A model generated the notes under the pieces. The model had not been told where the DNA came from. It saw only the letters and a program-made list of their open reading frames with translations, and did no database searches. Below, one piece after another: positions 225-32,829 of a stretch of 64,000 bases of DNA. A program made the position numbers and the translations under genes. This DNA is from Xylanimonas allomyrinae (lineage in GTDB: Bacteria; Actinomycetota; Actinomycetes; Actinomycetales; Cellulomonadaceae), in NCBI RefSeq assembly GCF_004135345.1, contig NZ_CP035495.1, forward strand, positions 1,798,001-1,862,000. Direction: 5' to 3'. Each line of letters starts with the position of its first letter. The first letter of the stretch is position 1.

Positions 225-305
225 ACCTCACGTACGGCGCCTGACCTGCACTGACGCCAGTCGGACGCTCCGTACGTGGTCCGTACGTGGTGCCGTACGC
301 CGTGC
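225..305. promoter_or_regulatory. CGTACG repeat cluster upstream of the primase gene
   Basis: The palindromic hexamer CGTACG occurs four times, at 231-236, 271-276, 282-287 and 294-299. The second and third copies lie in a perfect 11-bp tandem repeat (CCGTACGTGGT, 270-280 and 281-291). The last three copies are 11-12 bp apart, about one helical turn, and end about 40 bp before the primase-polymerase start. This is what an operator array or iteron-like binding site looks like. The binding protein is unknown; the ParB-like protein or the GntR-array protein of the same element are candidates. The rest of 1-340 holds no gene I can support. Confidence 0.5.
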
Positions 306-340
306 GTTCGCGGTAACGGTGGCGGCCGAGCGTGGTGGGC

Positions 341-1246
341 ATGTCAACACCGGCCGACCTCACCTCGTCGCGGCTCTCACCGCTGCGTCGTGCCGCCGCC
401 GCGCCCTCGCTGCCGGCGGCCGCGGCCTCGCTGGCGCGGGCCGGGGTGCCTGTGTTTCCGTGCGCGCCGACGGGTAAGCAGCCGCTGACGCAGCGCGGGT
501 TCCTGGACGCGACCACCGACGTCGACCAGGTCGCGGCGTGGTGGCGGCGTCGTCCGGACGCGAACATCGGCGTGCCGACCGGTGAGCGATCGGGGTTCGA
601 CGTCGTCGATGTGGACCTGCACCCGGGTTCGTCGGGGTTCCCGGCGTTCGAGCGGGCCCGCCGCGGCGGCCTGGTGGCGGGGTGGTCGGTGGTGGTGCGC
701 ACGCCCTCGGGCGGGATCCACGCCTACTTCCCGCACTCTGCGGGGGTTGAACAGAGGTCGTGGCAGTCGCCGCGCACGCACATCGACTTCCGCGGGGACG
801 GCGGGTATGTGGTCGCGCCGCCGTCGTGGTGCCTGACGCCGGTCGGGCCGCGTCGGTACGAGCTGGTCGCGGTGTCTGGCCGCGACCCGCATCCGGTGGA
901 CGCCGGCGCGTTGCGGGCGTTCCTCGATCCCCCGCGCCCGACGCCGTCACCGTCGGGTGCGGGCGTACTGCCTGGGGTGGGTGCCTCGCCGGATCGGTTG
1001 GCGGCCTGGGTCGCGAGCCGCCCGGAGGGCGGGCGCAACGCCGGGCTGTTCTGGGCGTCCTGCCGGATGGTCGAGGGCGGGTTCGACCTGCCCTCGACGG
1101 TGGGCGCTCTTGCCGAGGCCGCGCAGCACGCCGGCCTTCCGCGGCGGGAGGTCGAGGCGACGATCCGCTCGGCCTTCCGCCGCACTGCTGCCCTGCCCGC
1201 TCCGGGCGGTCTGCGCCCGGCCCCGACCCCGGAGGTGTCGACGTGA
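341..1246 (+). CDS. Bifunctional primase/polymerase (prim-pol) replication protein
   Basis: The protein has 301 residues and an N-terminal archaeo-eukaryotic primase (prim-pol) domain over roughly residues 25-200. The GVPVFPCAPTGKQP opening, the metal-binding VVDVD motif (Asp90 and Asp92) and the GGIHAYF motif with His127 are all visible. Such enzymes make primers on single-stranded DNA and start replication of plasmids and integrative elements; here it most likely serves the excised or transferring element. The C-terminal part (EGGRNAGLFWASCRMVEGG) resembles the accessory helical region seen after prim-pol domains in actinobacterial elements; no helicase domain is present. An upstream in-frame GTG at 332 is an alternative start. 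The end overlaps the next gene by 4 bp (GTGA). Confidence 0.85.
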   Translation: MSTPADLTSSRLSPLRRAAAAPSLPAAAASLARAGVPVFPCAPTGKQPLTQRGFLDATTDVDQVAAWWRRRPDANIGVPTGERSGFDVVDVDLHPGSSGFPAFERARRGGLVAGWSVVVRTPSGGIHAYFPHSAGVEQRSWQSPRTHIDFRGDGGYVVAPPSWCLTPVGPRRYELVAVSGRDPHPVDAGALRAFLDPPRPTPSPSGAGVLPGVGASPDRLAAWVASRPEGGRNAGLFWASCRMVEGGFDLPSTVGALAEAAQHAGLPRREVEATIRSAFRRTAALPAPGGLRPAPTPEVST

Positions 1247-13756: not shown

Positions 13757-14806
13757 ATGGAGTTCGACCGTTCCTCGCTCTCGGAGCGTGATGCCAAACT
13801 CGATGCCGTTCACGAGCGTCTCGCGCGGGCTGTCGAGGACCTGACGTCGGCTGAGGACTGGCGTCGTATGGCGGTGTTCGCGGCGAGGTGGCCGGCCCGG
13901 TCGTGGGCGAACAACCTGCTGATCCTGGTGCAGCATCGCGCGGCGTTCGAGGCGGGCCTGGTCCCGTTCCCGGATCCGGTGTACCCGGCGGGGTACGGGC
14001 AGCTGAAGGCGATGGGGTATCAGGTTCGCCGCGGGCAGCATGGGTACGCGATCCTGGCGCCGGTCACGCAGCGGCTGGTGGCCCGTAATCCGGACACAGG
14101 CCCGTGGCGGGCACTGGAGCGTTCCGAGAAGCCTGCACCTGGGGAGACGGTGCGGACCCGGCTGGTCGGGGTGCGTCCTGCGACGGTCTTCGATGTCACG
14201 CAGACGGACTTCGACGTCGACTCGCTGCCCAAGCCTCCCCCGTTGTTGGTGGGAGCGGCTCCGCCCGGGCTGTGGGACGGCCTGGCCGTCCAGGTCGCCG
14301 AGCGCGGGTTCCGGCTCGCGCTCGTGGCGGACGCTGACGCGCTCGGCGGAGCGAACGGCCTGACGAGCTACCGCGACCTGGTCGTCTCGGTGCGCGGGGA
14401 CATGGACGGTGCGGCGAGGGTCAAGACGCTGGCGCACGAGCTGGCGCACGTGATGCTGCACGGGCCGGACAACCCGGACGGGCTGGCGCACCGGTCGGTC
14501 GCGGAGGTCGAGGCGGAGACGGTCGCGCTGATGGTGGGTGCGGCGCATCAGATGGACACGAGCACGTACACGGTGCCGTATGTGTCGACGTGGGCGTCGC
14601 GGGTCGAGGGCAAGACGCCGGTCGAGGTCGTCCTGGAGACCGCGGAGCGGTCCCGCAGGGCCGCCGCCACCGTCCTGGACCGCCTCGACACCGTGCAGGT
14701 AGGCCGCATCGAGCTTCCCGCCCGGCGCCCGGCACCCCGGCCGCCCGATCCGGCGCAGGCACCGGCGGTCGCGCCGGCACCTGTCGTGGACGGAGCACAG
14801 CCATGA
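13757..14806 (+). CDS. ArdC-type protein: ssDNA-binding domain plus zincin peptidase
   Basis: The 349-residue protein begins with an ArdC-like N-terminal domain (about 10-120), including the block DWRRMAVFAARWPARSWANN and the GYQVRRGQHGYAILAP motif. It continues with an IrrE/ImmA-like zincin domain with the HELAH metal-binding motif (His227, Glu228, His231) in KTLAHELAHVMLHG, plus the downstream EVEAETVALMV glutamate. ArdC proteins bind single-stranded DNA and protect incoming DNA against restriction early in conjugation. The gene opens a second transfer operon with the VirD4 gene. A good GGAGG site precedes ATG 13757. Confidence 0.85.
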   Translation: MEFDRSSLSERDAKLDAVHERLARAVEDLTSAEDWRRMAVFAARWPARSWANNLLILVQHRAAFEAGLVPFPDPVYPAGYGQLKAMGYQVRRGQHGYAILAPVTQRLVARNPDTGPWRALERSEKPAPGETVRTRLVGVRPATVFDVTQTDFDVDSLPKPPPLLVGAAPPGLWDGLAVQVAERGFRLALVADADALGGANGLTSYRDLVVSVRGDMDGAARVKTLAHELAHVMLHGPDNPDGLAHRSVAEVEAETVALMVGAAHQMDTSTYTVPYVSTWASRVEGKTPVEVVLETAERSRRAAATVLDRLDTVQVGRIELPARRPAPRPPDPAQAPAVAPAPVVDGAQP

Positions 14807-15342
14807 AGCACCCTGAGCAGTCCGCTGTCACGTTGCGTCGTGCCACGATCACGGTGCTCGACGACGGCTCCCTTGCCGTGACCCTGGACGGTGAACCGTT
14901 CGACGGGGCCGCCGAGTGGCTCGCGGTCGGGGAGCCCGCGATCCGTGCCGTGCTGCCCGCCCTGGCGGGCGCGGCCGGTCAGACGGTGCGGGTCGACATC
15001 CACCTGCCGGGCGGGCGCCACCTGGTCGAGTACCTCACCCCCGACGACGTCGGCGACGGGGATGCCCCGGCTTCGGCGTCGCCACCGGCCGGGGCGCAGC
15101 CTGTGCGCCGTTCGGGTGGCGGGACGGTGTTCGGGGTCGCGGAGCAGGGTTTCCGGCCGGGTGAGGTGGTCTCGGTCGCCGTTGTCGTCGCCGCGACGCA
15201 CGCCGACGCGACAGGTCTGGCGACGTTGCGGATGCCGCCTGGGCTCCTCGCGGGTCGCCCGCTGGAGCTGATGCTCCTCGGGCACACCTCGGGTGTCGTC
15301 GTCGTGCACGACCCGCACGCCATCCCTCAGGTCGCGGCGTGA
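14803..15342 (+). CDS. Hypothetical protein, 179 aa
   Basis: I do not recognise this protein. ATG 14803 overlaps the ArdC stop and the end overlaps the VirD4 start, so it is translationally coupled on both sides. Two regions are beta-rich: RRATITVLDDGSLAVTLDGE near the start, and VVSVAVVVAATHADATGLAT followed by GRPLELMLLGHTSGVVVVH near the end, joined by a Pro/Ala/Gly-rich linker. There is no membrane segment. Its position suggests an accessory factor of the coupling protein. Confidence 0.55.
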   Translation: MKHPEQSAVTLRRATITVLDDGSLAVTLDGEPFDGAAEWLAVGEPAIRAVLPALAGAAGQTVRVDIHLPGGRHLVEYLTPDDVGDGDAPASASPPAGAQPVRRSGGGTVFGVAEQGFRPGEVVSVAVVVAATHADATGLATLRMPPGLLAGRPLELMLLGHTSGVVVVHDPHAIPQVAA

Positions 15343-17162
15343 ACGCCGGGCGGCCCGTGCCGGGCGGGAACGGCGCGCTGGGGAACGTCGCGATCGGCGT
15401 CGTGGTGGCCGGGCTCGCCCTGGCCGCGCTGCTGCGCGCGGCGGCATCAGTGGCCGCGTTCGTCACCGGTCGGGAGCCGCCGAGCGGGGGTCTTGCCGAG
15501 AGCCTGCACGTCCTGACCCGGCCCGGGGTGCCCGGTCAGGTGTTCGACGTGGCCGGCCTGGACCCGGTCACGTACTGGACGTCCGTCACCCTTCTTGCTC
15601 TGGCCGCGGGTGCCCTGCTCGCCGCCGGGTGGCGGGTCGTAGGCCCCGGTGCCCGGGCGGACGGGTTCGCGACCCGCGGCGACATCGCCCGGCACGCCTC
15701 GGCCCGCGCCCTGTTGAAGCGGTCAGCGCACCTGCGCCCCTCCGTGCACCGCCCGTCCCCGGGCGACGTCGGGTACCTGCTGGGGCGGGTGAACGGGAGG
15801 CGGGTGTGGGCGTCGGTCGAGGACTCCTTCCTGGTCATCGGCCCGCCACGCATGGGCAAGGGCGAGCACCTGGTCATCAACGCCGTCCTGGACGCACCGG
15901 GCGCCGTGGTCACGACCTCAACCCGCCCCGACACTCTCGCCGTCACCCTCGAGGCGCGCCGCCGTCGCGGCCCCGTCGCGGTGTTCGACCCGCAGGGCCT
16001 CGCTGCGGGGCTGCCGGCCGGGTTGCGGTGGTCCCCGATCCGCGGGTGCCAGGACGAGGCCGTCGCCTCGTTGCGGGCGCGCGGGCTCGCCTCGACGACG
16101 GGGTTCGGGGGAAACGACACCGACAACGGCGGGTACTGGCAGGGCCTGACCAAGACCGTCCTGGAGTGCCTGCTGCACGCCGCCGCGCTCGCCGGGCGCA
16201 CGGCCGCCGACCTGTACATGTGGTCCAAGACGCCGTCCGCGGCAGCCGAGGCCGTCGCGATCCTGTCCGCGCACGAGCATGCCGCACCACGGTGGGCGGC
16301 AGCGTTGAACGCGCAGATCAACGCCGACCCGCGCACCCGCGACTCCGTGTGGGGCGGGGTGTCCCTGGCGTTGGCGTCCTTGAACACGCGCGCGGTCATG
16401 GACGCCGTGACCCCGCCGGCCGGGCAGGAGTTCGACCCCGAGACGTTCCTGGGCGCGAACGGCACCGTCTACCTGCTCGCCACCTCGGCCGGGTCCGGTG
16501 GGGTCGCCCCGCTGGTGGCCGCGTTCATCGAGGACCTCACCGAGACCGCTCGGCGCCTCGCGGCTCGCTCCCCCGGCCAGCGCCTCGACCCGCCCCTGCT
16601 GCTCGCGCTCGACGAGATCGGCAACCTCGCCCCCCTGCCCACGCTGCACCAGCTCATGTCCGACGGCGGAGGGTCCGGGATCACGGTCATGCCGGTGCTG
16701 CAGTCCTGGGCGCAGGCCCGCAACGCGTGGGGTGAGCACAGGGCCGGAGCGATCTGGGACGCCGCCATCGTCAAGATCCACCTCGGCGGTTCCGCCGTCG
16801 CACGCGACCTGCAAGACCTCTCCGCCCTCCTCGGCGACCACGACGAGACCACCCGGTCGCGCACCTTCGGCCCCGACGGCACCACCTCCTCCCAGGAGTC
16901 GGTGCGCCGCGTACCGGTCATGTCCCCGCAAGCACTGCGGGCCATCGAGCGCGGCAAGGGGCTCATCCTGCTGCGCTCGGTCGCCCCGATGATCGCCACC
17001 CTGCGCCCCTGGCGCCGCCGGCCCGACGCGAGACAGCTCCTGGCCGACCAGGCCGCCACCGAGGCCGCGCTGCGCGCACCCGCGTCATCCACAACCCCGT
17101 CCCAGCCCACCCCGCACCCCGTCACACGTGCGCTCACTGGACCTCGAGAGGACACACCATGA
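15339..17162 (+). CDS. VirD4/TraG-type coupling protein
   Basis: The 607-residue protein has two N-terminal membrane segments (about 15-45 and 75-100) followed by a large ATPase domain. Walker A is GPPRMGKGE (Lys174) and Walker B is LLLALDEIGN (Asp425). The ITVMPVLQSWAQARNAWG block, which contacts the neighbouring subunit, and a C-terminal GLILLRSVAPMIATLRPW segment complete the TraG/VirD4 signature. It forms the hexameric coupling pump that brings the relaxase-DNA complex to the secretion channel. It confirms a T4SS of the double-strand-nicking, ssDNA-transferring kind rather than the FtsK/TraB-type transfer of AICEs. Confidence 0.88.
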   Translation: MNAGRPVPGGNGALGNVAIGVVVAGLALAALLRAAASVAAFVTGREPPSGGLAESLHVLTRPGVPGQVFDVAGLDPVTYWTSVTLLALAAGALLAAGWRVVGPGARADGFATRGDIARHASARALLKRSAHLRPSVHRPSPGDVGYLLGRVNGRRVWASVEDSFLVIGPPRMGKGEHLVINAVLDAPGAVVTTSTRPDTLAVTLEARRRRGPVAVFDPQGLAAGLPAGLRWSPIRGCQDEAVASLRARGLASTTGFGGNDTDNGGYWQGLTKTVLECLLHAAALAGRTAADLYMWSKTPSAAAEAVAILSAHEHAAPRWAAALNAQINADPRTRDSVWGGVSLALASLNTRAVMDAVTPPAGQEFDPETFLGANGTVYLLATSAGSGGVAPLVAAFIEDLTETARRLAARSPGQRLDPPLLLALDEIGNLAPLPTLHQLMSDGGGSGITVMPVLQSWAQARNAWGEHRAGAIWDAAIVKIHLGGSAVARDLQDLSALLGDHDETTRSRTFGPDGTTSSQESVRRVPVMSPQALRAIERGKGLILLRSVAPMIATLRPWRRRPDARQLLADQAATEAALRAPASSTTPSQPTPHPVTRALTGPREDTP

Positions 17163-17479
17163 CCCACCCGCTGAGCGTCGAGCACTACGCGACCTACGCC
17201 CGCGCCCGGTCCGCGCTGCGCGCCCTCGACCTCGGCGCCCCGACCCGACCCCTGGGGTGGGGGTACCGGGACGTCGTCCAGCTCCTCGACCTGCTCCACC
17301 TCGACGAGGGCATCACCCACATCTTCGAGGTCGACGCGCCCCGCCCCGACCTCGTCGCCGGCGCCCGCACCGCGATCACCGCACTGACCGCGTTCGGCAA
17401 GCCGCCCGCCGCGCTCGACGCCGTCGTCGCCGCGCTCGACGCCGCCTACGCCGCCGAGCTGGCCGCCCAGGACGCGTGA
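17159..17479 (+). CDS. Hypothetical small protein, 106 aa
   Basis: ATG 17159 overlaps the VirD4 stop (ATGA) and the stop overlaps the next ATG (TGATG). The protein is helical and soluble (EHYATYARARSALRALDL, YRDVVQLLDLLHLDEGITH, PDLVAGARTAITALTAF) and has no recognisable motif. The tight coupling to the GntR-array protein suggests that the two act together, perhaps as a partner or an assembly factor. Confidence 0.55.
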   Translation: MTHPLSVEHYATYARARSALRALDLGAPTRPLGWGYRDVVQLLDLLHLDEGITHIFEVDAPRPDLVAGARTAITALTAFGKPPAALDAVVAALDAAYAAELAAQDA

Positions 17480-20400
17480 TGTACGGGCAGCGCATCGACG
17501 AGCTGCTCGACGCGCTCGACGCGCTGACCCACGACTTCCGCGATGTCGGGCAGGACCTCGGCGGGCCGGGGAACCCCGTGCCCGGCCGCGCGGACCTCAT
17601 CGCCCAGGTCACCCGGCTGCACCAGCCCATCGCGCGCGCCGTCGCGCTGCTGGCCCACCACGCCGCCGAGGAAGATGCCCGCCTCACCGCCGACGACACC
17701 TACCAGCGGCTCGCCCGCGCGGCTGCCGCACGTCACGGCGCCAGGGCCGCCGCGGGGGTCGCCGCCCGCCAGGCAGCCCCCGCCCCCCGCGAACCCGTCC
17801 GTGACCGAGCCGTCCCGGGCCGGGCCGTGGGTGCGGTCCCCGAGCACGACAGACCACCGGCACGCCCCGCGATCACCGATGAAGCCCGGATCGACGAGGC
17901 CCGCAAACGGGTCACGAACCAGTTCCTGACCGGGTCGGACCTGACAGCCGCGAACGCTGCCGCACGCACAGTGCGCGCCTACCCGTCCCTGGCCGCCAGG
18001 TCGACGACACCCCTGGCCGGCGCCGCCCGCGACCTGCGCACCGCCACGAGCAGCCCGGACCGGCCCGCGCTGCACGCGGGGGACCTCGACGTCGTCGTGC
18101 ACCCGATGGTTGCCCGGTGGCGCGACGCGGCCCGCGCGGCGATCCTCCTGACCGACCAAGAGCTTCCCGCCCTCGGGCCCCTGACCAGCACACAGGTCGC
18201 CGCTCTCGCAGCCGACGCCGCACTCCTACGCGACGCCCTGACCTCCCTCGCCGCCGGGTGGGAGAAGAACCTGCACGACCACGGCGAGACCCTGACCTGG
18301 CCGGACCTGCCCGCCGTCCCGGCCCTCTCGGCCAGCCCGGACTGGGGCATCGACCGGCTCGGCTGGACCCCACCACGACCGCCGCGAACCCGCCCCGGCC
18401 GACGCGACGGCGTCGCCGAGACCCTCTGGGCGCTCGAGACCCTTGCCGCCGGCCTCCACGCGGCGACCCCGCACGCCCGCGCCGCCACCGAGGCCGCCGC
18501 ATCCCTGACCCGCATCAGTGAGCACGCCACCACCCTCGGCCGGCACCCGCGCGTGTGGTCCGCCCGCGTCGGAGTCTTCGAGTCCCTGTGGCTGCGCCTC
18601 CAGGACGTCCACTCCGGGGCCGGCGCCCAGCAAGGCGTCCTGCTGGCCATCGACGCCGCCAACGCCTTCGCCGACGTCCGCGCCCTGGCCCCCGACGAGG
18701 AGACCGCACTGCTCGACGCCGTCGCGGCCACCAGCGCCGCCCTGCACGCCGCGGTCAGCCACGCGACCCGCACCCACCTGTACGCCGTCATCACCGACTA
18801 CCGCATCGGCCCCGTCGTGCGAGCCACCCGGCAGCTGCTGCCCGTCTACCAGCTCGCGACCCCCGAACACGCCCCCGACCTCAACGACGCCATCGACGCC
18901 CTGCAACCCCTCCCCACGGTCGACCGCCCGAACCCCGACCCCACGGCAGGCCGAGCCACTCCGCAGGGAACCCGCGTCGCGGGTGGCGTCCGCGACCGCC
19001 TGAGCCGACGGCTTCGCACCTACGCCGAAGCCGTGCCACCGGCCCCCGTCCCGACCTCGCCGCCCACCGACCCTGCCGTCGCGCGCGCCTACCGGCGGAT
19101 CCGCACGCGCATCGCCGACAACGCCCACCAAGGCCCGCTGCCTCCGCTGGCCACCCTCGCGCGCGACACCTCCGGGCGTCGTCCAGGCCGGAGCGCGGCG
19201 ACGCTCGCTGTCGCCCACCTCGTCGCCGACGGCCACGCCACACTCACCGAGCACCACGCCCCCGACGGCGGCGCACTGGCCGTCACCATCGGCGCCCGCA
19301 CCACCAAGGCCACCTACGCGACCATCTACACCCAGCTGCGCACCCAGATCGAGAACGGCCTCTACACCGGCCGCCTGCCGCGCACCAAAGACCTCGCGGC
19401 CGAGCACGGCGTCACCACGACAGTCATCCACCACGCCGCCGCAGCCCTGGCCCGCGACGGGCTCGTGTACCGCGTGCGCGGGTCCGTCGGCGGCGGCACC
19501 TACGTCGCACCCCGCCCCACCGCCGCCCCACCACCACTGTGGCGCATCATCCGCGACGACCTGCGCACCCGCATCACCACCGGCACCCTCACCGGCCAGA
19601 TCCCGAGCCTGGACCAGCTCGCCCGCGACTACGGCGCAAGCACCTCGACCATCCACCGGGCCATCAGCCACCTGACCACCGACGGCCTGCTCTACCAGCG
19701 CCTCGCCGGCCCCGACCACGGCGGCACGTTCGTCATCGGCCCCGACGACCCTCTCCCCGAGCCGCAGTGGCGCCCACTCCACGACACCCTACGCACGGCG
19801 ATCCTCGACCAGACCCTCACCGGAGACCTGCCCACACCCGCCACCCTCGCCCGCCAGCACGACGTCGACCCGCTCGTCGCCGCGACCGCCGTCGCCCGTC
19901 TCGCCGCCGAGGGCCTCGTCTACCACCGCATCAGCGGCAACCGGCGCGGCCTGGCCATCACCCCGCGCACCGACCGGCCGAACACCACCCGCGCCCACGC
20001 GATCTACACCGACCTGCGCGCCACCATCATCGACGGCACCGCCACCGGCCGCCTGCCGTCTCGCACCCAGCTCGCCCGCGAGTACGGCACCAGCACCGGC
20101 CCGCCCGGCGAAGCCATCCGCCGCCTCGTCGCCGAGGGCCTGGCCCGCACCGTCACCGGAACCGGCCCGAGCGCCGGAACGTTCGTCGCGACCGCACCAC
20201 CCGAACCGCCGCGACCCGGCACGCCCTGGACAAAGATCCACGACCTCATCCGCGACCGCATCACCGACGGCACCTACACCGGCCGCCTCCCGCGCCCGCG
20301 CGACCTCGCCGCCGAACACCACGTCAGCACCACCACGATCTACAAGGCACTACGACGCCTGGCCGCCACCGGCCGCGTCCAGACCGTCAACGACGGCGCC

Positions 20401-20730
20401 CGCTCCGGCACCTACGCCATCACACCCGACGCCGAACCCGCACCGACGACCCGGTGGCGCATCTACGACGACCTGCGCGCCCGCATCCAACGCGGCGACC
20501 TCACCGGCCGGCTCCCCACGCACGCGACCCTCGCCGCGCACTACGGCACGAGCACCAAACCCATCGCGTTCGCCGTGCACGCCCTCGCCCACGAAGGCCT
20601 CCTCGACGTGCGCCCCGGCCACGGCACCTCCGTCGTGCCCCGCACACCACCGCGGCCCGGAACAACGCGCGGCCAGGCCTCACCGCACGACGGTCTCCCC
20701 CCGGCACCCGCTGCGGGTCCAGACCTGTGA
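17479..20730 (+). CDS. Protein with seven tandem GntR-like winged-helix domains
   Basis: The 1083-residue protein is exceptional. After a helical N-terminal part (1-525, no known family) it has seven consecutive winged helix-turn-helix units of the GntR type, starting near residues 529, 610, 687, 761, 837, 915 and 991, with a period of 74-81. Each unit follows the pattern IY-x2-LR-x2-I-x-G-x-x-TGRLP-x4-LA-x-(E/D)-(Y/H)-G-x-(S/T)-(T/S)-x2-I-x2-A-x2-L-x2-(E/D)GL, then a wing ending in GGTYV or GTFV. Units 2, 3, 5, 6 and 7 are the best; unit 4 lacks the canonical recognition-helix start, and unit 1 is diverged. No ligand-binding domain is present. It likely binds an array of sites as a nucleoprotein organiser, regulator or replication/transfer factor of the element. 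ATG 17479 is coupled to the previous stop; the open frame extends further upstream, but that part is a shadow of the previous genes. Confidence 0.8.
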   Translation: MYGQRIDELLDALDALTHDFRDVGQDLGGPGNPVPGRADLIAQVTRLHQPIARAVALLAHHAAEEDARLTADDTYQRLARAAAARHGARAAAGVAARQAAPAPREPVRDRAVPGRAVGAVPEHDRPPARPAITDEARIDEARKRVTNQFLTGSDLTAANAAARTVRAYPSLAARSTTPLAGAARDLRTATSSPDRPALHAGDLDVVVHPMVARWRDAARAAILLTDQELPALGPLTSTQVAALAADAALLRDALTSLAAGWEKNLHDHGETLTWPDLPAVPALSASPDWGIDRLGWTPPRPPRTRPGRRDGVAETLWALETLAAGLHAATPHARAATEAAASLTRISEHATTLGRHPRVWSARVGVFESLWLRLQDVHSGAGAQQGVLLAIDAANAFADVRALAPDEETALLDAVAATSAALHAAVSHATRTHLYAVITDYRIGPVVRATRQLLPVYQLATPEHAPDLNDAIDALQPLPTVDRPNPDPTAGRATPQGTRVAGGVRDRLSRRLRTYAEAVPPAPVPTSPPTDPAVARAYRRIRTRIADNAHQGPLPPLATLARDTSGRRPGRSAATLAVAHLVADGHATLTEHHAPDGGALAVTIGARTTKATYATIYTQLRTQIENGLYTGRLPRTKDLAAEHGVTTTVIHHAAAALARDGLVYRVRGSVGGGTYVAPRPTAAPPPLWRIIRDDLRTRITTGTLTGQIPSLDQLARDYGASTSTIHRAISHLTTDGLLYQRLAGPDHGGTFVIGPDDPLPEPQWRPLHDTLRTAILDQTLTGDLPTPATLARQHDVDPLVAATAVARLAAEGLVYHRISGNRRGLAITPRTDRPNTTRAHAIYTDLRATIIDGTATGRLPSRTQLAREYGTSTGPPGEAIRRLVAEGLARTVTGTGPSAGTFVATAPPEPPRPGTPWTKIHDLIRDRITDGTYTGRLPRPRDLAAEHHVSTTTIYKALRRLAATGRVQTVNDGARSGTYAITPDAEPAPTTRWRIYDDLRARIQRGDLTGRLPTHATLAAHYGTSTKPIAFAVHALAHEGLLDVRPGHGTSVVPRTPPRPGTTRGQASPHDGLPPAPAAGPDL

Positions 20731-21644: not shown

Positions 21645-22331
21645 TCAGGACTGAGCGAGCGGGTCGCCGGCCCGGGCTGCGAGGAGTGCCGCCTCGACCC
21701 GGTTGCGTGCGCCGGTCTTGCGCAGGATCGCGGTGACGTGGACCTTCACGGTGCCCTCGGCGAGGAAGAGCAGGTTGGCGATCTCTGTGTTGGAGCGCCC
21801 GTCACCGATCAGGGCGATCACCTGCTGCTCGCGGTGGGTGAGCCGAGCGACCAGGCGCACGGCCTCCTCGCGGCGCGCGAGACCTCGCCCGAGTCCAGCG
21901 TCGAGGATCTTGCGGGAGATCGACGGGGAGAACCAGGCGCCACCGGTGGCGACCGCGTGGACGGCCAGGAGTAGCTCGCGCGGGTCCCCGGACTTGAGTA
22001 CGAACCCGTCGGCCGCGTGACGCATCGCCCCCGCGACGTACTCGTCCTCGCCGAACGTGGTGACCATGAGGCAGGGCAGCGCGCCGAACAGCCGCCGGAC
22101 CTCGGCCAGGGCCGAGAGCCCGTCCGCGGAGGGCCCGTCTTCCGAGGATCCACCGCCCATGCGCACGTCGAGCAGGACGACGTCGGGGCGGTATGCCTGG
22201 ATCGCCGGGACCACCTCGGCGCCCGAGGCGCACTGGGCCACGACGCGCAGGTCGTCGTCGGTCTCGAGGATTGCGACGATCCCGGCGCGCACGAGCGGTT
22301 CGTCGTCGGCGACCAGGAGGCGCAGCGTCAT
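21645..22331 (-). CDS. NarL/LuxR-family response regulator
   Basis: The 228-residue protein has a receiver domain (about 1-125) with the acidic pair in LLVADDEP, the phosphorylated Asp in VVLLDVRMG, and the conserved Lys in DGFVLKSGDP. A C-terminal LuxR helix-turn-helix follows (LTHREQQVIALIGDGRSNTE, IANLLFLAEGTVKVHVTAIL). It is the DNA-binding output of the two-component system and probably controls the ABC transporter or PAP2 genes transcribed in the other direction. ATG 22331 overlaps the stop of the small membrane protein upstream. Confidence 0.88.
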   Translation of the reverse strand: MTLRLLVADDEPLVRAGIVAILETDDDLRVVAQCASGAEVVPAIQAYRPDVVLLDVRMGGGSSEDGPSADGLSALAEVRRLFGALPCLMVTTFGEDEYVAGAMRHAADGFVLKSGDPRELLLAVHAVATGGAWFSPSISRKILDAGLGRGLARREEAVRLVARLTHREQQVIALIGDGRSNTEIANLLFLAEGTVKVHVTAILRKTGARNRVEAALLAARAGDPLAQS

Positions 22332-22750
22332 CGGGCGGCTCCTTCCACCAGGGCCGTCGAGACGACCAGGTCCTGGTCCCAGCAGATCTCGTAGGCGTCC
22401 TCGAACTCGTCCGCGAACGGGTTGGTGGTGATGGCGAAGTAGTCGCAGCCGGGGCGGCCGCCGTCCGGCCGCGGCAAGGTGTACCTGGGCAGCAGGTGGC
22501 CGATGTCGGTGCGCGCGTCGCCGACGCGGATCTGCCCGAACTGTTCCGCCGTGAGCAGCGCGCGGTCGGCTTCTCGGCTGTTGGCCACCGCGAGCCCGAC
22601 AGTCACCGCACCGAGGGTCACGGCCGGGATGGCGATCGCGGCGCCGACCAGGATCGTCCCGCGTCGTCGCGCCCGGCTCAGGCCCGCCACCAGCCCGCGC
22701 GCCGAGTCCGGGGCCGGAGACTGCACTTGCCGACCGGTCTCGCCGAGCAT
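22328..22750 (-). CDS. Single-helix membrane protein between kinase and regulator
   Basis: The 140-residue protein has a basic cytoplasmic N-terminus, one membrane helix (ILVGAAIAIPAVTLGAVTVG), and an extracytoplasmic domain. That domain contains FGQIRVGDARTDIGHLLPRY and the cysteine-bearing segments PGCDYFA and YEICWDQD. The 'rvGdtr..v..lLp' pattern recalls small periplasmic SmpA/BLIP-like folds. The reading frame overlaps the last 73 bp of the kinase gene and 4 bp of the regulator gene. Its place inside the two-component operon suggests an accessory sensor or modulator; that is inference. Confidence 0.55.
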   Translation of the reverse strand: MLGETGRQVQSPAPDSARGLVAGLSRARRRGTILVGAAIAIPAVTLGAVTVGLAVANSREADRALLTAEQFGQIRVGDARTDIGHLLPRYTLPRPDGGRPGCDYFAITTNPFADEFEDAYEICWDQDLVVSTALVEGAAR

Positions 22751-23783
22751 GCGGGGAACCTCGCTCGAAGAGTGAACCGGCCCTCACGGGCTTCGACGTC
22801 GAGCATGCCGCCCGCCGCCATGACCCGGGACTGGAGCGAACGAAGCCCCGTGCCACCCGTCCGGGGCGCCTGCTCCCCTCTGGCCGCTGAGGTCGGATTC
22901 GACACTGTGACCACCACCCACGGACCGTCGTCCTCGACCCGCACCGTCACGGGCTGCGACGGAGCATGACGCAGCGCATTCGTCAGGCCCTCGCGCACGA
23001 CGGACGCGGCGAGGACTGCGGCCTGCTGCGCGACCCCGCCGAGCCTCTTCTGACCGGTCATGGTGACGTCGGCACCGGCGAGGCGGGCGTCACAGACCAG
23101 CCCAGCGACGTCGGGAGGATCCGCTACGACGCGACCCACCCGCCCCCGGGCTCGGAGGCACCGCGCAGGCTCCGCACGGACACGCCGAGCCGTTCGACGG
23201 CCTCGCCCACCTGAGACCGGGCCAGCCCGATCGAGCTCCTCGTGGCGCCTGTCAGAGCACGGTCGAGCTCGAGCCGTCCCAAGTTCAACGCCACCAGGCT
23301 CAATGCGTGTCCCACGTCGTCGTGAAGCTGCTCAGCGAGCCGCAGGCGCTCGTGCGCGAGCTGGGACTCCAGACGCTGCTCGCGCGCCTCATGCTCGCGC
23401 ACGACGGCAGCCGCCGCGCTCGACTCCAGGTCCCGTCGCCCGCGCCACGCCACCGCCACCAGCCAGGGCAGCACCCCGGCGCACAACCCGCGGGCCACGG
23501 CGATCAGCACATCGCTGACCAGCACCGTGCCGCTCAGCGCGAGGACCGCCCCCGCCATCACCGCCACACCGCAGGCCGCAAGCCCCCATCGCAGGCCGGT
23601 GCCGAACCAGCCGATGACCACAGCCACGAAGGCCAGCGGCACAAGCCACCACGGCGCGACCCCCGCGAAGATGAACAACACGACGAGGGCGGCCGCCCCC
23701 CAGGGCTCGGCACGCGTCATAGACCCACGACTCACACCCCCATCGTCGGCGCCCGGCACCCACACTGCGTCATCCCGCGGCAC
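22678..23783 (-). pseudogene. Sensor histidine kinase (NarL-type), split by a frameshift
   Basis: The first frame (from GTG 23783) encodes about five membrane segments and the HisKA_3 dimerisation helix with the phospho-acceptor His in RLRLAEQLHDDVGHALSLVA. It stops at 23124. The continuation in another frame has the HATPase block VVREGLTNALRHAP and GTGLRSLQSRVMAAGG and ends at 22678. The switch lies near 23,133-23,147, where the minus strand reads GGGGGCGGGTGGG, so a one-base indel in a G-rich run rejoins the two halves. It would phosphorylate the response regulator. It may be functional if the indel is a sequence error. Confidence 0.75.
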
Positions 23784-23863
23784 GACATGACCGGCCAGCT
23801 GATACCACCACGGTCATACCCGGTTCCTGACCAGCGGCAGATGGATGCCCCGCGGACGGTTCC

Positions 23864-23876
23864 TAGCGTCGTTGAC
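23864..23876 (+). promoter_or_regulatory. Leaderless promoter of the PAP2 gene
   Basis: A TANNNT -10 element (TAGCGT, 23864-23869) lies 7 nt before ATG 23877, so transcription would start at or next to the start codon, a common actinobacterial arrangement. No ribosome-binding site is visible, which supports leaderless initiation. Confidence 0.45.
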
Positions 23877-24640
23877 ATGCCCAGATTCGCTGCTACCGCT
23901 GCCCCCGACACGGGCTTCGCGGCCCGCTCGCCTCCGCCGCCGTACTCACAATCCTCACCGCGATCACCTACGCGCCCCGGGCTTCGCTGTTCACCCATCT
24001 CACCGAATCGGTCAACGGGTCTCGCGTCGAGGATCTCGTCGTACGGCTCGCCGACAAGGGGTTGCTGCTTCTAGTTGCCACCGCCGGAATCCTCGCCGTG
24101 GTCACCTGGCTGCGCGACCGTCCCGGGTTCCTGCGGCTCGCCGTCGGCGGGCTCGGCGCGATCGTCTCCTACGCCACCAGCGAGGCCGTCAAGACCCTCG
24201 TGGCCCAGCCGCGCCCCTGTCACACCCTCGACGTCGTCACCGCGCTCACCTGCCCAACGGCCACCGACTGGTCCTGGCCCAGCAACCACGCCACGATCGC
24301 AGGGTCGATCGCCGTCGCGTGCCTCCTCGTCGCACCCCGCCTCTGGCCACTGCTGGTTCCACTCGCCGCAATCGTGGCCACCGCACGCGTCGGCGCAGGA
24401 GTCCACTACCTGCACGACATCACCGCAGGCCTCGCCCTCGGCACCCTCATCACCGCGCTCATCAGCACCTACGCCACCCCTGCGCTCGCCCGCATCCCCT
24501 TGGTGCAGCGGGCGACGCGTCGATCAGCGCCCCGCGCTGATCCTCCTCGTCGCCGCGCGATCTCGACAGGTGCACTGCACGTGCCACCCACCGCCCACCC
24601 AGAGGAAGGGTCGACGAGCCGGGGGCTGCTCGGCGGGTGA
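23877..24640 (+). pseudogene. PAP2-family membrane phosphatase, probably frameshifted near its start
   Basis: From about 23,910 one frame encodes a membrane protein with the three PAP2 motifs: KTLVAQPRP, then PSNHA, then RVGAGVHYLHD with the catalytic His and Asp. This is typical of undecaprenyl-pyrophosphate or lipid phosphatases acting on the outer face of the membrane. This frame has no usable start codon before an upstream stop, apart from a TTG at 24062 that would delete the first membrane helix (ASAAVLTILTAITYAPRASL). The ATG at 23877 is in another frame, so a one-base indel near 23,910 is likely. It may recycle the undecaprenyl carrier or confer cell-wall drug tolerance with the adjacent transporter. 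Confidence 0.7.
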
Positions 24641-24800
24641 CAGAGCCTGCCGCCGGAGGCTGACGGCTCGCGTCGCCCAGCCAACCTAGGGATGCCCGTG
24701 GCCGGATGGGGAGCAGCCTCCGGGGCGACGCCGGCGGTTGCCTGCAGTTCGCAGTCTCGTACCACCTTCACCCTTCCTCCCATTCCACCCGGAGCTATCT

Positions 24801-25618
<818 letters not shown>

Positions 25619-25619
<1 letters not shown>

Positions 25620-28182
25620 TGCTGACCCTGACCCTGGCGCAGATGCGCCGCTCGCTGCCCCGCCTCACGGCCGCCGGCATCGCCATCGTCATCGGCGCAG
25701 CGTTCGTCGCCGCCACCCTGCTCGCCGGCAACCTCATCACCCGCGCCACCTACGACGCGATCGCCGCGCAGTACGCGCACGCCGACCTCGTGATCGAGGT
25801 TCCCGACGGGGCAGCACTGACCGACGCCGACGTCGAGGCGGCCCGCACCACGCCCGGCGTAGCCGTCGCGGCCGGCACACTGCAGTCCCTCCAGTCGCTG
25901 GCGAGCGGCGCGCGCACCATCTATCAGGCCGTCATCCCGACCGCGCCCGACCCCCGCCTGATACCCCTGACGCTCGCCGACGGCGACTGGCCGGCAGGCC
26001 CAGGGCAGATCGCACTCCCGCCGGACGTGGCCGACCGGCTCGGCGTCGACGTCGGCGACGCCGTCAAACTGGACTCGACGAGCCAGGCCCAGGACTCCCA
26101 GGTGGTCACGGTCACCGGGCTGGTCAACGACCCGAGGAACGCCTACGGCGGCCAGGGCGGAGCCGCGGTGATGGACGCCGCCGCGCTGCACGCGCTGGTC
26201 ACCGCTCAGGCCGGCGGCTACCCCGACGCCGTCGCCTACACCGACGTCGCCGTCGTCCTGGCGGGCCGCGCCGACATCGAGGCCGTCCGTACCGCGCTGC
26301 GCGACGCCGTACCGACGGCAAGCGGTGTCGTTACCCCCGACGAGCACGCCCAGGCGAAAGCCGACGCGATGACCGGGGCGACAACGTCATCTTCGTGGTG
26401 TTCGTCCTAACATTCGCTGCGATCGCGCTCGTGGTGGCCGGGCTGGTGATCGCCAACACGTTCCAGGTGCTAGTCGCTCAGCGCACCCGGACCCTCGCGC
26501 TCCTGCGCGCGGTCGGCGCCAGCAAGCGCCAGGTCGGCCAGAGCGTCCTGGTGGAGGCCGCGGCGCTCGGTCTCGCGGCATCGGCGCTCGGCGTGCTGGC
26601 CGGCTGCGGCCTGGGCCAGACCGCTCTGTCCATCGCCCGCCGGAGTGAGGCCGCGGTCTTCATGCCTGCCACGATCAATGTCACCTGGCAGGTGGTCGTC
26701 GCCCCGCTCCTGGCGGGTGTCGCCGTGACCGTCCTCGCTGCGCTCGCGCCCGCACTCGCCGCCACCCGAGTCGCGCCGCTGGCCGCAATGCGTCCCGACG
26801 ACGGCCCCGCTGCCGACAAGAGGACGTCCGGCCGCGTCCGGCTCGTGGCGTCGCTGCTGGCGGTCGTCGCGGGGTTGGCCCTCCTGGGCCTGGGCGCGTG
26901 GCTCGGCACAGCGCGAGCAGAGGTGAACTCCGGGCTCGTCGCCGGTGTGACCGGCGGCACGATCTCCTTCGTGGGCGTCGCCGTCTCGGCCGTGTACTGG
27001 CTGCCACACGTGGCCTCATGGTCGGGGCACCTCATCGGCCTGACTGGGCCGACAGCCCAGCTCGCCGCCGCGAACACCCGGCGCAATCCGCGACGCACCA
27101 CGGCGACGTCGACGGCACTGCTCATCGGCGTCACCCTCGTCACCACGATGTCCACGGGTGCCGCCAACGCCCGCGCGAGCCTGGACGGCGTCCTCGACAA
27201 GAGGTACCCCATCGACCTGCTGGTCCAGTCGAGTGGCTACGAACTGGACGGCGCGCTCACGGCGCTGCCGCCGGACGTCGTCGCGGCGGTCAGGAGGACC
27301 AACGCTGTGACCGCGATGGTGCAACCGCTCGACGCCACCCTCACGCTCGCTGGTGCAACCGCGATCGGTCGCGACCCAGCCGATATCACGGCGATGGGCA
27401 TCGACCCAGCCGCCGGGCAGACGACGCTCACGGACGACTCGATCATCGCGGGCCTGGCACCCGGCGTCGTCGTCGTCCCGCCCTCCCAGGCTAAGGCGTG
27501 GCGCATCACGGCCGGTGACGACGTCACGCTGAGCGGGCCGGACGGGACGATTACGCTCACCGCTGCGGTGGCCGGCGAAGACGGCCCAGGCGCCTGGATC
27601 CTGGATCCGGCAGACCTCAATGTCGTCGCCGCACAAACCGCCTCCAGCCAAATGTGGGCGTCGCTGCGCAACGGCGCCGACGACGTCGCGGCCATCCAGG
27701 ACGCGATCTCCGAGACCGGCAAAGCCGTCGTCGTCGCTGGAGTCGCGGTCCAGCGCGAGTCGTTCCAGGACGTCATCGACACTGTCCTCGGCGCGGTCCT
27801 GGGCCTGCTGGCGGTCGCCGTCGTCATCGCCCTGATCGGCGTGGCCAACACCCTGTCGCTGTCGGTCTTCGAGCGACGCCGCGAGTCGGCCACGCTCCGA
27901 GCCATCGGCGTCACCCGCGGCCAGCTACGCCGGATGGTTGCCGTAGAGGGCATGCTCATCTCCGGCGTCGGCGCAGCCCTCGGTATCACGACCGGACTGC
28001 TCTATGGGTGGTGCGGAGCAATGGCGGCACTCGGCGCCTTAGGAGACGTGCGCTTCGAGACACCGTGGCGCGACATTGCACTCACGATCGTCATCGCTCT
28101 GGTCGCGGGCCTTGTCGCCTCCGTACTGCCCGGCCGCTCAGCGGCCAAGCCCTCCCCCGTTGAGGCACTCGCCACCGAGTAG
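25619..28182 (+). pseudogene. FtsX/MacB-type ABC permease with one frameshift
   Basis: Two frames together give a permease of about 854 residues with the usual design: an N-terminal helix, a large extracytoplasmic MacB-PCD domain, three helices (IFVVFVLTFAAIALVVAGLV onward), a fourth helix, a second extracytoplasmic domain, and three C-terminal helices ending GRSAAKPSPVEALATE. Conserved TLALLRAVGASKRQV and ATLRAIGVTRGQLRRM loops contact the ATPase. The first frame ends at 26410. The run GGGG at 26375-26378 is where one extra G would rejoin the frames (TGGDNVIFVVF). This is more likely a homopolymer error than a true loss. Its partner ATPase is directly upstream. Confidence 0.8.
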
Positions 28183-29257: not shown

Positions 29258-29737
29258 GTGTCCATCCCGACCAGGCAGTGCATCGTCGGCGAGATCGCCT
29301 CCGCACCGCACATGTCCAAGACCACCGACGGCGGTGAGCGGTACTTCGCCCGCATCAAGATCAAGGCCCGCCGACCGCGCCCCGACGGCACCTACGGACC
29401 CCCGGCCGAGACGTTCCACAACCTCGTCGCGTTCGGCCGCGCCGCCCAACGGGCCCGCACCCGCGTGCGCGAGGGCGACGTCATCGTCGCCGCCGGGTAC
29501 GTGCGCGAGTACGTCCACACCGTGGCCGGCGTCGAGCGCCGCGACGAGGAGTTCGTCATGCGCTGGTTCGGGCACGACGCCTGGCGCACCACCTACCGCA
29601 TCGCCCGCACCGGCCACCACCGCTCCGAGGCCGCTGCACGGCGCACCACCGCCCCGGCCGAGGTCGGGTACGCGACCCTCGCCGAGGGCCTCGCCGCCGC
29701 CGCCGAGGACGCCCTGCACGCCGGTGGTGCGCGATGA
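29258..29737 (+). CDS. ssb: Single-stranded DNA-binding protein (element-encoded)
   Basis: The 159-residue protein has an OB-fold: TRQCIVGEIASAPHMSKTT, RYFARIKIKARRPRPDG, TFHNLVAFGRAAQRARTRVR, GDVIVAAGYVREYVHT. The last block is the SSB motif 'kGd.v.v.G.l..r.y'. The C-terminus lacks the acidic DDDIPF-type tail of the chromosomal SSB, which is common for plasmid and ICE versions. It would coat the transferred strand or support element replication with the primase-polymerase. GTG 29258 follows AGGAGG with a 7-nt spacer. It starts an operon with the next three genes (4-bp overlap). Confidence 0.8.
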   Translation: MSIPTRQCIVGEIASAPHMSKTTDGGERYFARIKIKARRPRPDGTYGPPAETFHNLVAFGRAAQRARTRVREGDVIVAAGYVREYVHTVAGVERRDEEFVMRWFGHDAWRTTYRIARTGHHRSEAAARRTTAPAEVGYATLAEGLAAAAEDALHAGGAR

Positions 29738-30252
29738 GCGGGCACCCGTTCGGTGACGACCTGCCCCCGGGCCCGGTCAACTGGAACGAGCTCCTCCCCG
29801 AGCAGGCCGAGGAACAGTGGTGCGCCCTGGACGCCTGGGTGACCTGGCTGCGCCGCGCCTACGGCCTGTCCCCCATGGAGATCCCGCCGTTCTGGCACCG
29901 CCACGACGAGCTCGTCTGGGAACTCTCCGCCCTGCACCAGCACTGGCTCGCCTGCTACGGCGACGGCGCCGCCCTGTCCGCACCCATCCAGTGGCACCGT
30001 GACTTCCGCGAGGCCCGCACCCGGCTGCGTGAATGGGTCGCGGCCTGCGGCACCGACATCGCCTCCGACCGGCCCACCCTCAACCCGACCTGGCCCGGCG
30101 AACCACCCACCGACGCCGACGCCGACGCCGACCCCACCCGGGTGCTCACGGACCGCGCCGCGGACTTCCGAGCCACCGTCGAGGCCGACATCGCCGTCCG
30201 TGAGGCCACCCTCGAGGTCTACCTCACCGCAGTCCGCGAAGCGGACGCGTGA
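29734..30252 (+). CDS. Hypothetical protein, 172 aa (DUF4913-like layout)
   Basis: The protein has a tryptophan-rich helical domain: CALDAWVTWLRRAYGLSP, FWHRHDELVWELSALHQHWL, IQWHRDFREARTRLREWVAA. The 'WV.wL...y', 'W..H.e....l..l...W' and 'WHRDF..A...L' spacing recalls DUF4913 proteins, which are frequent on actinobacterial plasmids and conjugative elements next to SSB or relaxase genes. Its function is unknown. ATG 29734 overlaps the SSB stop, and its stop overlaps the next gene. Confidence 0.5.
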   Translation: MSGHPFGDDLPPGPVNWNELLPEQAEEQWCALDAWVTWLRRAYGLSPMEIPPFWHRHDELVWELSALHQHWLACYGDGAALSAPIQWHRDFREARTRLREWVAACGTDIASDRPTLNPTWPGEPPTDADADADPTRVLTDRAADFRATVEADIAVREATLEVYLTAVREADA

Positions 30253-31286: not shown

Positions 31287-31499
31287 ATGCCCGCCCAGCC
31301 GCACCACCGCACCGACCACGACCTCGTCCCCCTGCACGACGCCGCCGAACACTTCCACGTCTCCATCAAGACGCTCCGGCGCCGCATCTCCGACGGCACC
31401 ATCACCGGCTACCGCATCGGCCGCCTCGTCCGCGTCGACCTCGACGACGTCGAAGCGAGCCTCCTCCACGAGATCCCGGCGGTCCGCAGCGCCTTCTAG
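31287..31499 (+). CDS. xis: Excisionase/recombination directionality factor (Xis-like HTH)
   Basis: The 70-residue protein has the MerR/excisionase helix-turn-helix: VPLHDAAEHFHVSIKTLRRR followed by ISDGTITGYRIGRLVRVDLD, which includes the wing (RIGRLVRV). Such proteins bend attachment-site DNA and push the integrase toward excision. A strong AGGAGG site precedes ATG 31287. It converges with the integrase gene, and a hairpin lies between the two. Expression with the SSB operon would link excision to transfer functions. Confidence 0.8.
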   Translation: MPAQPHHRTDHDLVPLHDAAEHFHVSIKTLRRRISDGTITGYRIGRLVRVDLDDVEASLLHEIPAVRSAF

Positions 31500-31558: not shown

Positions 31559-32829
31559 CTAGGCGCTTCGCACGGCCGACTTCGCCGCGGCGGCGACTTG
31601 CTCCAGGGCGCGCTCGCTCATCCGGTTGGCGAGCTCGCGGTCACGCTCCATCGTCGCGTGCTGGTATCGGAGCACCACCTTGATGTCCGAGTGACCACCG
31701 CGGCGCATCAGTTCCGCGAGGGTCGCACCTTCCTGGGCGAAGAGCGTCAGGCCTGTGTGTCGAAGGTCGTGGAAGCGGAAGCCCGGCGGCAGCCCAGGAA
31801 CGCTGTCGCGCGCCTCCGCCCAGACATAGCCGAATTTCGTGTTCGAGAGGGGCATCCGGCTGAGGCTCTTAGCCGGCACGACCGGAGACATCGCCTCGCG
31901 CGCGACGTTCTCGGCCAGGTGCGCGGCCAGCCGGTCACGCATGATCCTCGGGACGCTCATCGACCGCTTGCCTGCCTCCGACTTCGGATCGGTGTAGTCC
32001 CCGGTGTTTGCGTTGAGCTGGCGGCGCACGTACAGCGTGGCGGTGCCGTCGTCGTGCCACCGGATGTCCCGGCGCTGAAGCCCGAGCACCTCGCCCCGCC
32101 GCAATTGACACCACGCCGCCAGCAGCACGAAGACTCGCCATTGCGGTGGCGTCGCGCAGTAGACGGCCTCGACCTGGACTGGGTCGATGACATCCTCGCC
32201 CGGGTCGTGGTCCGCTCCGTGACGCACCGACTCCTGCTTGCGGATGCGCACGTCAGGAGCCTTGGGGATGATCCCGTCACGCGCGGCCTGGCGCAGGATC
32301 ATCATGAGGACGACCAGCACGGGCCGCGTGACGCCGTTACGCGTCGCCTTCCGGTTCACCTCCGCCGGGATCTTGTCGAGTTTCGCCGTGAACTCACTGA
32401 TTCGCTCGACCGTGATCGTACGCACCGGAGTGTCGCCGAACTCTGGGACGAGGTAACCGGTGACCTTGCTCCGATACGTTCGCACCGTGCCAGCCGCGCG
32501 CATCTTGCCCGACCGGTTCGGGGTCCCCTCGATCAGCGCCATCCAGCGTCCGGAGTACTCGCGGAAACCGGTCGACTGGGCTTCCGCGGCCGCCGCAACG
32601 GCTTGACGGCGCGCGGCGACCAGCGCCGGCGGCTCCCACACGCCCTGCGCGATCACCGTTTGGGTCCGAGCAAGCCAGGCCCGAGCGTCAGTCTTTGTCT
32701 GGAACGTGAGTGCCTTGTCGTCCTCGGTGCGGGCCGTATACGTCCGTCCGTCCGGGCGGGGTACCGAACCTGCCATCGCCCCGATGGGAGCTTGCGCAGG
32801 CTTCCCCAGGTCTCTCGTGCGGTACTCAT
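31559..32829 (-). pseudogene. int: Tyrosine integrase of the element, frameshifted at a GGAC repeat
   Basis: A strong AGGAGG site precedes ATG 32829, which opens the arm-binding domain (WGSLRKLPSGRWQVRYPAR). The frame is lost at three tandem copies of GTCC on the plus strand (GGAC on the coding strand), 32742-32753. The remaining 400 residues continue in another frame (GRTYTARTEDDKALTFQTKT onward). They contain the core-binding domain and the catalytic residues: Arg in CQLRRGEVLGL, the HDLRH box, Gly-Gly-His in GGHSDIKVVL, and the nucleophile Tyr in RYQHA. A fourth repeat unit would restore one frame exactly. An internal ATG at 32776 could give a protein without the first arm strand. Integrates the element by site-specific recombination when intact. 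Confidence 0.75.

Follow-up and report, generated by a model that had tools for sequence, protein, structure and literature searches.

Seven tandem GntR-type winged helices in one protein chain of an actinobacterial conjugative element

GntR regulators usually consist of a single N-terminal winged helix followed by a ligand or oligomerisation domain (FCD, UTRA or aminotransferase-like). What, then, is the role of a protein in which winged helices of this type follow one another along the C-terminal half of the chain? The question is raised by a gene of Xylanimonas allomyrinae (17479..20730, plus strand; 1083 residues) that lies in a conjugative element within the 64,000 nucleotides of NZ_CP035495.1 positions 1,798,001 to 1,862,000. 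This whole stretch is called the window here, its numbering is used for all coordinates unless stated otherwise, and its genome is referred to as G000. A sequence-only reading of the window had described the protein as seven GntR winged helices in tandem behind an N-terminus of no known family. In this study, profile searches, structure prediction and comparisons among actinobacterial genomes were used to analyze the protein, focusing on its architecture, distribution, genomic neighbourhood and possible mode of action.

Architecture and distribution of the array

The reading frame, its start and stop and its length are as had been claimed. The ATG at 17479 overlaps by one base the TGA of an upstream gene of 106 residues (17159..17479, plus strand), which is named small here and regarded as a partner gene. 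The G+C content at third codon positions is 0.82-0.96 across the frame in steps of 300 bases. PF00392 (GntR) matched the whole protein with an E-value of 6.1e-49 and 164 bits, against a curated cut-off of 27, and five stretches of the chain, corresponding to units 2, 3, 5, 6 and 7, were individually significant. The seven units start at residues 532, 611, 686, 762, 837, 915 and 991, at spacings of 79, 75, 76, 75, 78 and 76 residues. Each unit was then scored by profiles made without its own position and compared with 200 shuffles, of which 194-200 returned a score. Units 1 to 7 reached 23.7, 73.5, 75.3, 56.4, 67.4, 81.1 and 75.2 bits, respectively, and the best shuffle per position reached 6.6-8.5 bits (7.7 for unit 1 and 8.5 for unit 4). 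The lowest held-out score among all units of the four array proteins described below was 14.7 bits, for unit 7 of P0004, the protein of genome G004.

When the array was submitted to AlphaFold2 as a single sequence, the pattern helix-helix-helix-strand-strand was predicted seven times over, with a mean predicted local distance difference test score (pLDDT) of 67.3 and a predicted template-modelling score (pTM) of 0.27, at which the placement of the units relative to each other is undefined. The cores of units 2 to 7 mostly had a pLDDT of 63-91, falling to 38-57 in wings and linkers. Unit 1 (19072..19293; all units are on the plus strand) is the most diverged, and its three helices and two strands were predicted at low confidence, with ten-residue blocks at 53-65 over most of the unit and below 40 at its end. 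Units 2 (19309..19518), 3 (19534..19746), 5 (19987..20199) and 7 (20449..20646) were each recovered by PF00392, the held-out profile and AlphaFold2; unit 4 (19762..19971), which in the window protein did not reach significance to PF00392 by itself, was recovered by its held-out profile and AlphaFold2. Unit 6 (20221..20430), found by PF00392 and its held-out profile, was also modelled separately with the other six units as alignment, which gave a winged helix with a pLDDT of 77.7 and a pTM of 0.63. The top PDB structure matches of this model were the GntR DNA-binding domains of PdhR, GabR, DasR and AraR (E <= 0.001 in two rows only), and the closest solved chains by sequence were YvoA/NagR and DasR. 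The C-terminal half of the protein is therefore seven GntR-type winged helices in tandem, and the number below which the sequence-only reading had agreed beforehand to be abandoned, four winged helices by profile and structure, is exceeded.

The ligand or oligomerisation domains of GntR regulators were not found among the matches listed (25 of 28 for Pfam and 25 of 33 for NCBIfam), in agreement with the earlier claim that the protein lacks one, and the GntR equivalogs among those NCBIfam matches all scored under their own cut-offs. As a whole, the protein does not have the one N-terminal winged helix plus ligand domain of a GntR regulator. A relaxase domain (MOBF/TrwC or other) was likewise absent among the Pfam rows listed for the 1083-residue protein and from its N-terminal half scanned alone. 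Within the portions of the PubMed Central literature on tandem or repeated GntR domains and winged-helix arrays that were consulted, no such protein was described, as the sequence-only reading had also held. As far as these searches go, the architecture is undescribed in the literature searched, the building block is a known fold and the array is conserved within one genus.

Among 11 genomes of the genus, including G000, some match was found in seven and a strong one (E 2.3e-14 or better) in four; the other three contained single GntR stretches only, with E-values of 3e-5 or weaker. The same four genomes, namely G000, G003, G010 and G004, were the ones to pass E 1e-12 among 221 genomes of the family. 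The array proteins of G003, G010 and G004 share 50%, 49% and 28% identity with the window protein, respectively, the last coming from a contig of 9 kb in an assembly that is 79% complete. At strict E-values, the window's own protein was all that was found, both with an array profile across the phylum (386 genomes) and with a full-length profile across the order (396 genomes), 2-3 candidates being scored per genome. No relatives were found in named-genome scans or viral contigs, or by whole-protein tblastn against plasmids and against phages. The array thus appears, as found so far, to be restricted to one genus.

By the unit profile, all four array proteins have seven units, the last unit of G004 being weak; individually significant PF00392 stretches number seven in the orthologue P0002 and six each in P0003 and P0004. 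Homologues with varying repeat number, which the sequence-only reading had proposed to look for, did not turn up among these four. Mean unit identity among the three close orthologues (those of G000, G003 and G010) is 54.7% at the same position vs 35.0% at different positions, and in a tree of the units the three sequences grouped by position in all seven trios (support 0.64-1.0). Since the units are distinct and position-matched in these three proteins, the unit order is older than their split. The seven units of G004 cluster together in the tree (support 0.69), and a second amplification to seven units may have taken place.

The N-terminal domain and the conjugative element

The N-terminal domain (17479..19062, plus strand), named X here, had been regarded as an orphan. 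Scanned alone, the N-terminal half matched no Pfam family at E <= 0.05, and neither did five stand-alone homologues; within the whole-chain Pfam scan it gave one match below cut-off, to HTH_PafC (E 0.02). It was not covered by any NCBIfam or PHROGs match listed and had no PDB sequence match. It proved instead to be a conserved element protein that stands alone elsewhere, with no Pfam, NCBIfam or PHROGs name among those matches. The first stand-alone homologue, of 439 residues, was found with a profile of the N-terminal half (E 5.7e-10) in a genome of another actinobacterial family, and with an improved X profile, 39 of the 197 genomes searched in that family gave matches. Stand-alone X proteins in the elements of this family are mostly 430-450 residues long, and the longest open frames tabulated for these matches never exceeded 733 residues. 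Conversely, a profile built from 21 stand-alone X proteins only found all four array proteins, with 28-30 bits for the three close ones (30.1 for the window protein) and 88.8 bits for that of G004, the best shuffle reaching 2.9 bits. A tblastn search of stand-alone X against plasmids found none. An earlier profile, A2, was insensitive, leaving unmatched four genomes (G624, G669, G864 and G930) that the improved profile matched, and absence in the scans with A2 and with the full-length profile is weak evidence for that reason.

A GntR unit was found in none of 25 X loci read in the other family (any open reading frame (ORF) of at least 60 residues, with a profile made partly from incomplete N-domain sequences), nor in 21 wider, largely overlapping X loci of 15-20 kb. 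An upstream ORF overlapped the start of X in 18 of the 25 loci, by one base in 17 and by four bases in one, the start of X not being located by the script in the other seven. In the 21 wider loci, small adjoined X in 20, a gene for single-stranded DNA-binding protein (SSB) was present in 18, TraG in 15 (plus two weak), and Int or Xis somewhere in 17. The window protein shares with this family the homologous N-terminal domain, the overlapping small gene and the backbone neighbours, and X is a conserved accessory protein of an actinobacterial family of conjugative elements with a type IV secretion system (T4SS). Because the distribution of the array is narrow, the seven units were probably appended to a pre-existing X rather than lost elsewhere.

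A second X is encoded in the same genome at 2,192,699-2,194,003 (minus strand). The protein, which stands alone and has 472 residues, is accompanied by an overlapping small gene of its own, and the 60 kb that were read contained no GntR unit. This second X lies about 1.2 kb behind a frame of 1224 residues that contains the only TrwC match of the genome (G000:C1:2197678-2198739). The backbone genes of this locus, from primase to EccE-like, are found 14 kb and more beyond the TrwC relaxase; VirB4, TraG, SSB and int lay outside the part that was read. The distance between TrwC and the primase gene is 13-16 kb in G003, G010, G1033, G1059 and G1043 as well as here; in G799, the seventh genome searched, TrwC is on a contig other than that of its X. 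In view of the spacing shared with those five elements, we take the second X locus as a second element of the same family, differently opened. Since no TrwC match is present in the window element (G000:C1:1758001-1862000) and the only one belongs to the second element, transfer of the window element may take place in trans. That X itself might be the relaxase had been considered when the Pfam scans of the window element genes showed none, and was ruled out by the separate TrwC genes in the same element family.

The plus-strand backbone run of the window element begins with a bifunctional primase/polymerase gene (332..1246, plus strand; PF09250), followed by a weakly ParB-like gene, an M23 peptidase gene, two DUF6112 genes, of which the second is also pilin-like, TrbL-, EccE- and VirB4-like genes (the TrbL- and VirB4-like matches being under the Pfam cut-offs), an ArdC-like gene (13868..14806, plus strand; a weak Pfam match in the window, with orthologues above cut-off and synteny), a TraG/VirD4-type coupling protein gene (15339..17162, plus strand; PF12696 and PF02534), small and the X-array gene. 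Behind these come apparent cargo, SSB (29258..29737, plus strand; PF00436), a DarB-like gene (30252-31256), a gene for an excisionase-like helix-turn-helix protein (31287..31499, plus strand; PF12728 just above cut-off) and a tyrosine integrase gene (31559..32656, minus strand; PF00589), which forms the right end of the element beside an nrdF-like gene. Most of these backbone genes are common to the window element, G003 and G010. The DarB-like backbone protein, of 334 residues, has no Pfam match, matches a PHROG of DarB-like antirestriction proteins (E 2.4e-18) and has homologues in G003 and G010; it was tried as a paralogue of X and rejected, hhalign giving a probability of 1% (some inputs being partial). 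The placement in a coupling-protein operon suggested by the sequence-only reading is right for the window, where the array gene stands directly behind TraG. It is not constant, because the X-array gene of G010 adjoins int rather than TraG; X is also beside xis or int in several elements of the other family, and the second X lies behind the relaxase gene.

Some further features of the element were observed. To the left of the primase gene, at L024:4139-12280 (some 36-28 kb to the left of the window), is a Tad/Flp-like pilus cluster, in which Pfam identified T2SSE and T2SSF genes and inspection by eye small pilin- and TadE-like ORFs. The same arrangement occurs in L028 (G003), in its G010 counterpart and at L079:91-5506 (G1033). 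As elements of two families have the cluster in this place, it may be a component of the conjugative element family. Apparent cargo (21645-28182) separates the array gene from SSB. By eye it comprises a minus-strand response-regulator-like gene as well as genes on the plus strand; of the latter, the first (24801-25619) is similar to a P-loop ATPase of G003. This cargo was not found at the same place in G003 or G010. An ORF at 12051-12950 matches DDE transposase and GNAT acetyltransferase profiles and is perhaps an insertion remnant with cargo. ARAGORN called a tRNA-Leu(gag) at 31383-31476 (minus strand), overlapping the excisionase-like gene; the call may be spurious or mark a relic related to att.

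Possible function of the array

The reading that we prefer, with a probability of about 0.45, is that the array acts as a multivalent DNA-binding arm that would hold X and small on the DNA of the element at a DNA-processing or control site. Each unit would make a weak, possibly wing- or backbone-based DNA contact through its own surface, and one chain would span one long stretch of element DNA, of about 70-90 bp if the units were about one helical turn apart. The X/small complex would thereby be tethered at the processing or control site; relatives that lack the array would need another factor to bring X to DNA, unless X acts there untethered. The protein may have a role in DNA processing. The net charge of the array is +19, +19 and +21, with +6 in the fourth protein, that of G004, and in the window units 1 to 7 contribute +4, +4, 0, +2, +3, +4 and +4; seven GntR domains of the host range from -1 to +6, with a mean of about +1. 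The N-terminal parts of P0001, P0003 and P0004 have net charges of -2, +1 and -4, that of P0002 being left out because the sequence counted extends into Arg-rich residues that precede the likely start. Between orthologues, the columns of the recognition helix are marginally the most conserved (60% vs 51-57% elsewhere, no significance test).

Several observations weigh against this reading. According to the portions of PMC7797058 and PMC4333415 that were consulted, Arg45 (FadR numbering) is the signature residue of GntR domains that reads a guanine, and Arg49 contacts the backbone. In the window protein, Arg45 is present in one of seven units (unit 1, where the alignment is doubtful) and Arg49 in none; among the 28 units of the four proteins they occur in six and three, respectively, and never together. 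By Arg45, the window units depart from ordinary GntR domains. In GntR regulators of the same genome each of the two residues is kept in six of seven (the eight best-scoring loci were taken and seven aligned, a choice biased towards canonical ones), and Arg35 occurs in 6 of the 28 array units vs three of these seven regulators. The statement that most units keep the DNA-recognition pattern is thus correct for the fold and fails for the base-contacting arginines. As for the proposal that the protein binds seven spaced sites, the seven-unit array is there, and operator reading of the classical kind at seven sites is doubtful because Arg45 and Arg49 are nearly all lost. We read the array as probably binding DNA by altered means, for which the wing-centred mode of TcpK may serve as a precedent, a change to protein binding being less likely.

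The search for target DNA weighs in the same direction. A weak candidate target is given by the 11-12 bp direct repeats that repeat scans detected upstream of the primase gene (270..304, plus strand), and similar repeats precede the primase gene of G003. When repetition at 9-13 bp was compared with shuffles, 0 of 60 were as good in G003 and 2 of 60 in the window; in eight other elements 9-52 of 60 were as good, the array-bearing G010 being among them at 37. The repeats are exceptional in G003 only, where they are the best of 298 windows, since in the window element 76 of 218 windows are as good; G010 lacks them though it bears an array, and the array-less second element of G000 is as repetitive as the window (2 of 60 shuffles). 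These comparisons lend little weight to the idea that target sites are iterated to suit the seven units. Repeat scans of nine intergenic stretches together with a tandem-repeat scan yielded no other clear candidate, and the folding of the region upstream of the primase gene was unremarkable (z -0.42). It must be added that X is without known function.

The motif CTGACCTGCRNAAAC, also located upstream of the primase gene, was tried as an origin of transfer (oriT) and rejected, and no oriT was identified. The motif is not specific to the element, because it is nearly as common in genomes without an X match, being present in 39 of 39 X-bearing and 36 of 39 X-less genomes of the other family (20 of the latter were reported without an X match and the other 19 taken as such, since they were missing from the match rows). 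Its core TGAYCTGC is found upstream of the primase gene in nine of ten elements and is absent there from the second element of G000. In family f45, 75 of 78 genomes contain the motif, usually in more than one copy and in either orientation, with the reversed control pattern in 0 of 78; some of the 30 occurrences whose context was read (loci L087-L116) end tRNA genes or form terminator-like stems.

How the array would work admits several other explanations. The main rival, which we consider improbable but deserving of weight, is a transcriptional repressor: the array would bind the control region upstream of the primase gene and repress the transfer genes, with X as sensor or oligomeriser. The GntR origin of the units fits this, as do the direct repeats before the primase gene, clearer in G003 than in the window, and a precedent is given by KorSA, a GntR repressor that controls replication and transfer of pSAM2 according to the portions of PMC3218068 consulted. 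The same repeats are, however, unexceptional in the window element, absent from G010 and matched by the array-less second element; the arginines needed for operator reading are lost, a single operator would require one dimer rather than seven distinct units, and in relatives the gene is at the opposite end of the backbone, beside SSB, xis and int. Loss of the same arginines would suit a protein-binding scaffold on which T4SS, SSB or integrase partners would assemble without any reading of DNA sequence. So would the recognition helix of unit 5 (S-T-G-P-P in the window protein; STGPP, STGPP and STGAP across the three close orthologues, with a conserved G-[PA]-P), that of unit 4, which begins with D in the same three, and the retention of identity at each position in spite of the lost arginines. 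DNA binding is the usual function of GntR winged helices, the array carries a net positive charge and no partner was identified, and a scaffold seems to us quite unlikely.

Many linked, mostly positive units without the canonical contacts could also coat or silence the DNA of the element or of competitors through many weak non-specific contacts. The position-specific conservation points to specific surfaces instead, and the neighbourhoods of stand-alone X give no hint of silencing, so we regard this as very improbable. Least credible of all is a decaying or functionless repeat expansion; the lost arginines and the strongly diverged unit 1 would be expected from decay, but the open frame and seven ordered units have been kept in three species at about 50% protein identity, and the codon-position G+C content is like that of working genes. 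The multivalent arm remains the reading that we favour. It might be carried further, though this is an unlikely extension, to a single-chain reader in which seven position-specialised winged helices, moved away from GntR operator reading, would jointly recognise a single long composite site, assembling there a nucleoprotein complex for X and small in transfer, replication or excision, a design perhaps reached twice in one genus.

Significance and comparison with known systems

Few one-domain DNA readers of bacteria are as well known as the GntR proteins, and a natural, conserved array of seven GntR units in one chain would offer a test case for multivalent recognition of composite DNA sites. 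The finding also exposes the unnamed protein X and its small partner in actinobacterial conjugative elements, and with array-bearing and array-less X in one genome the function of X can be asked directly.

By profile and predicted fold, each unit of the array shares the winged helix of the GntR regulators of the HutC and FadR subfamilies (NagR/YvoA, DasR, FadR, PdhR and AraR). The present protein differs from them in having seven winged helices in one chain, placed C-terminal to an element protein, with Arg45 and Arg49 almost all lost and none of their ligand domains found among the matches listed. SelB, an elongation factor, resembles the array in carrying winged helices in a row within one chain; it differs in that it has four, which are not derived from GntR and bind RNA. 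KorSA of pSAM2 has in common with the array protein the GntR domain and the setting of an actinobacterial integrative element, and is an ordinary GntR-family regulator for which the consulted portions of the source mention no array or X domain (PMC3218068). TcpK of pCW3, as far as the consulted portions of its description go, is a winged-helix relaxosome accessory protein that binds tandem 9-bp repeats of oriT in a mode centred on the wing, and is a single unit of 102 residues that forms a dimer and is structurally like MarR and MukF (PMC6137059). TcpK and the array protein are both winged-helix proteins of conjugative systems, a likeness drawn by description rather than by direct comparison with the array or X. 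The stand-alone X proteins, for which no published name was found, differ from the window protein in their shorter length and in the absence of winged-helix units from the loci read; they share with it the N-terminal domain, the small overlapping upstream gene where located, and the backbone neighbours.

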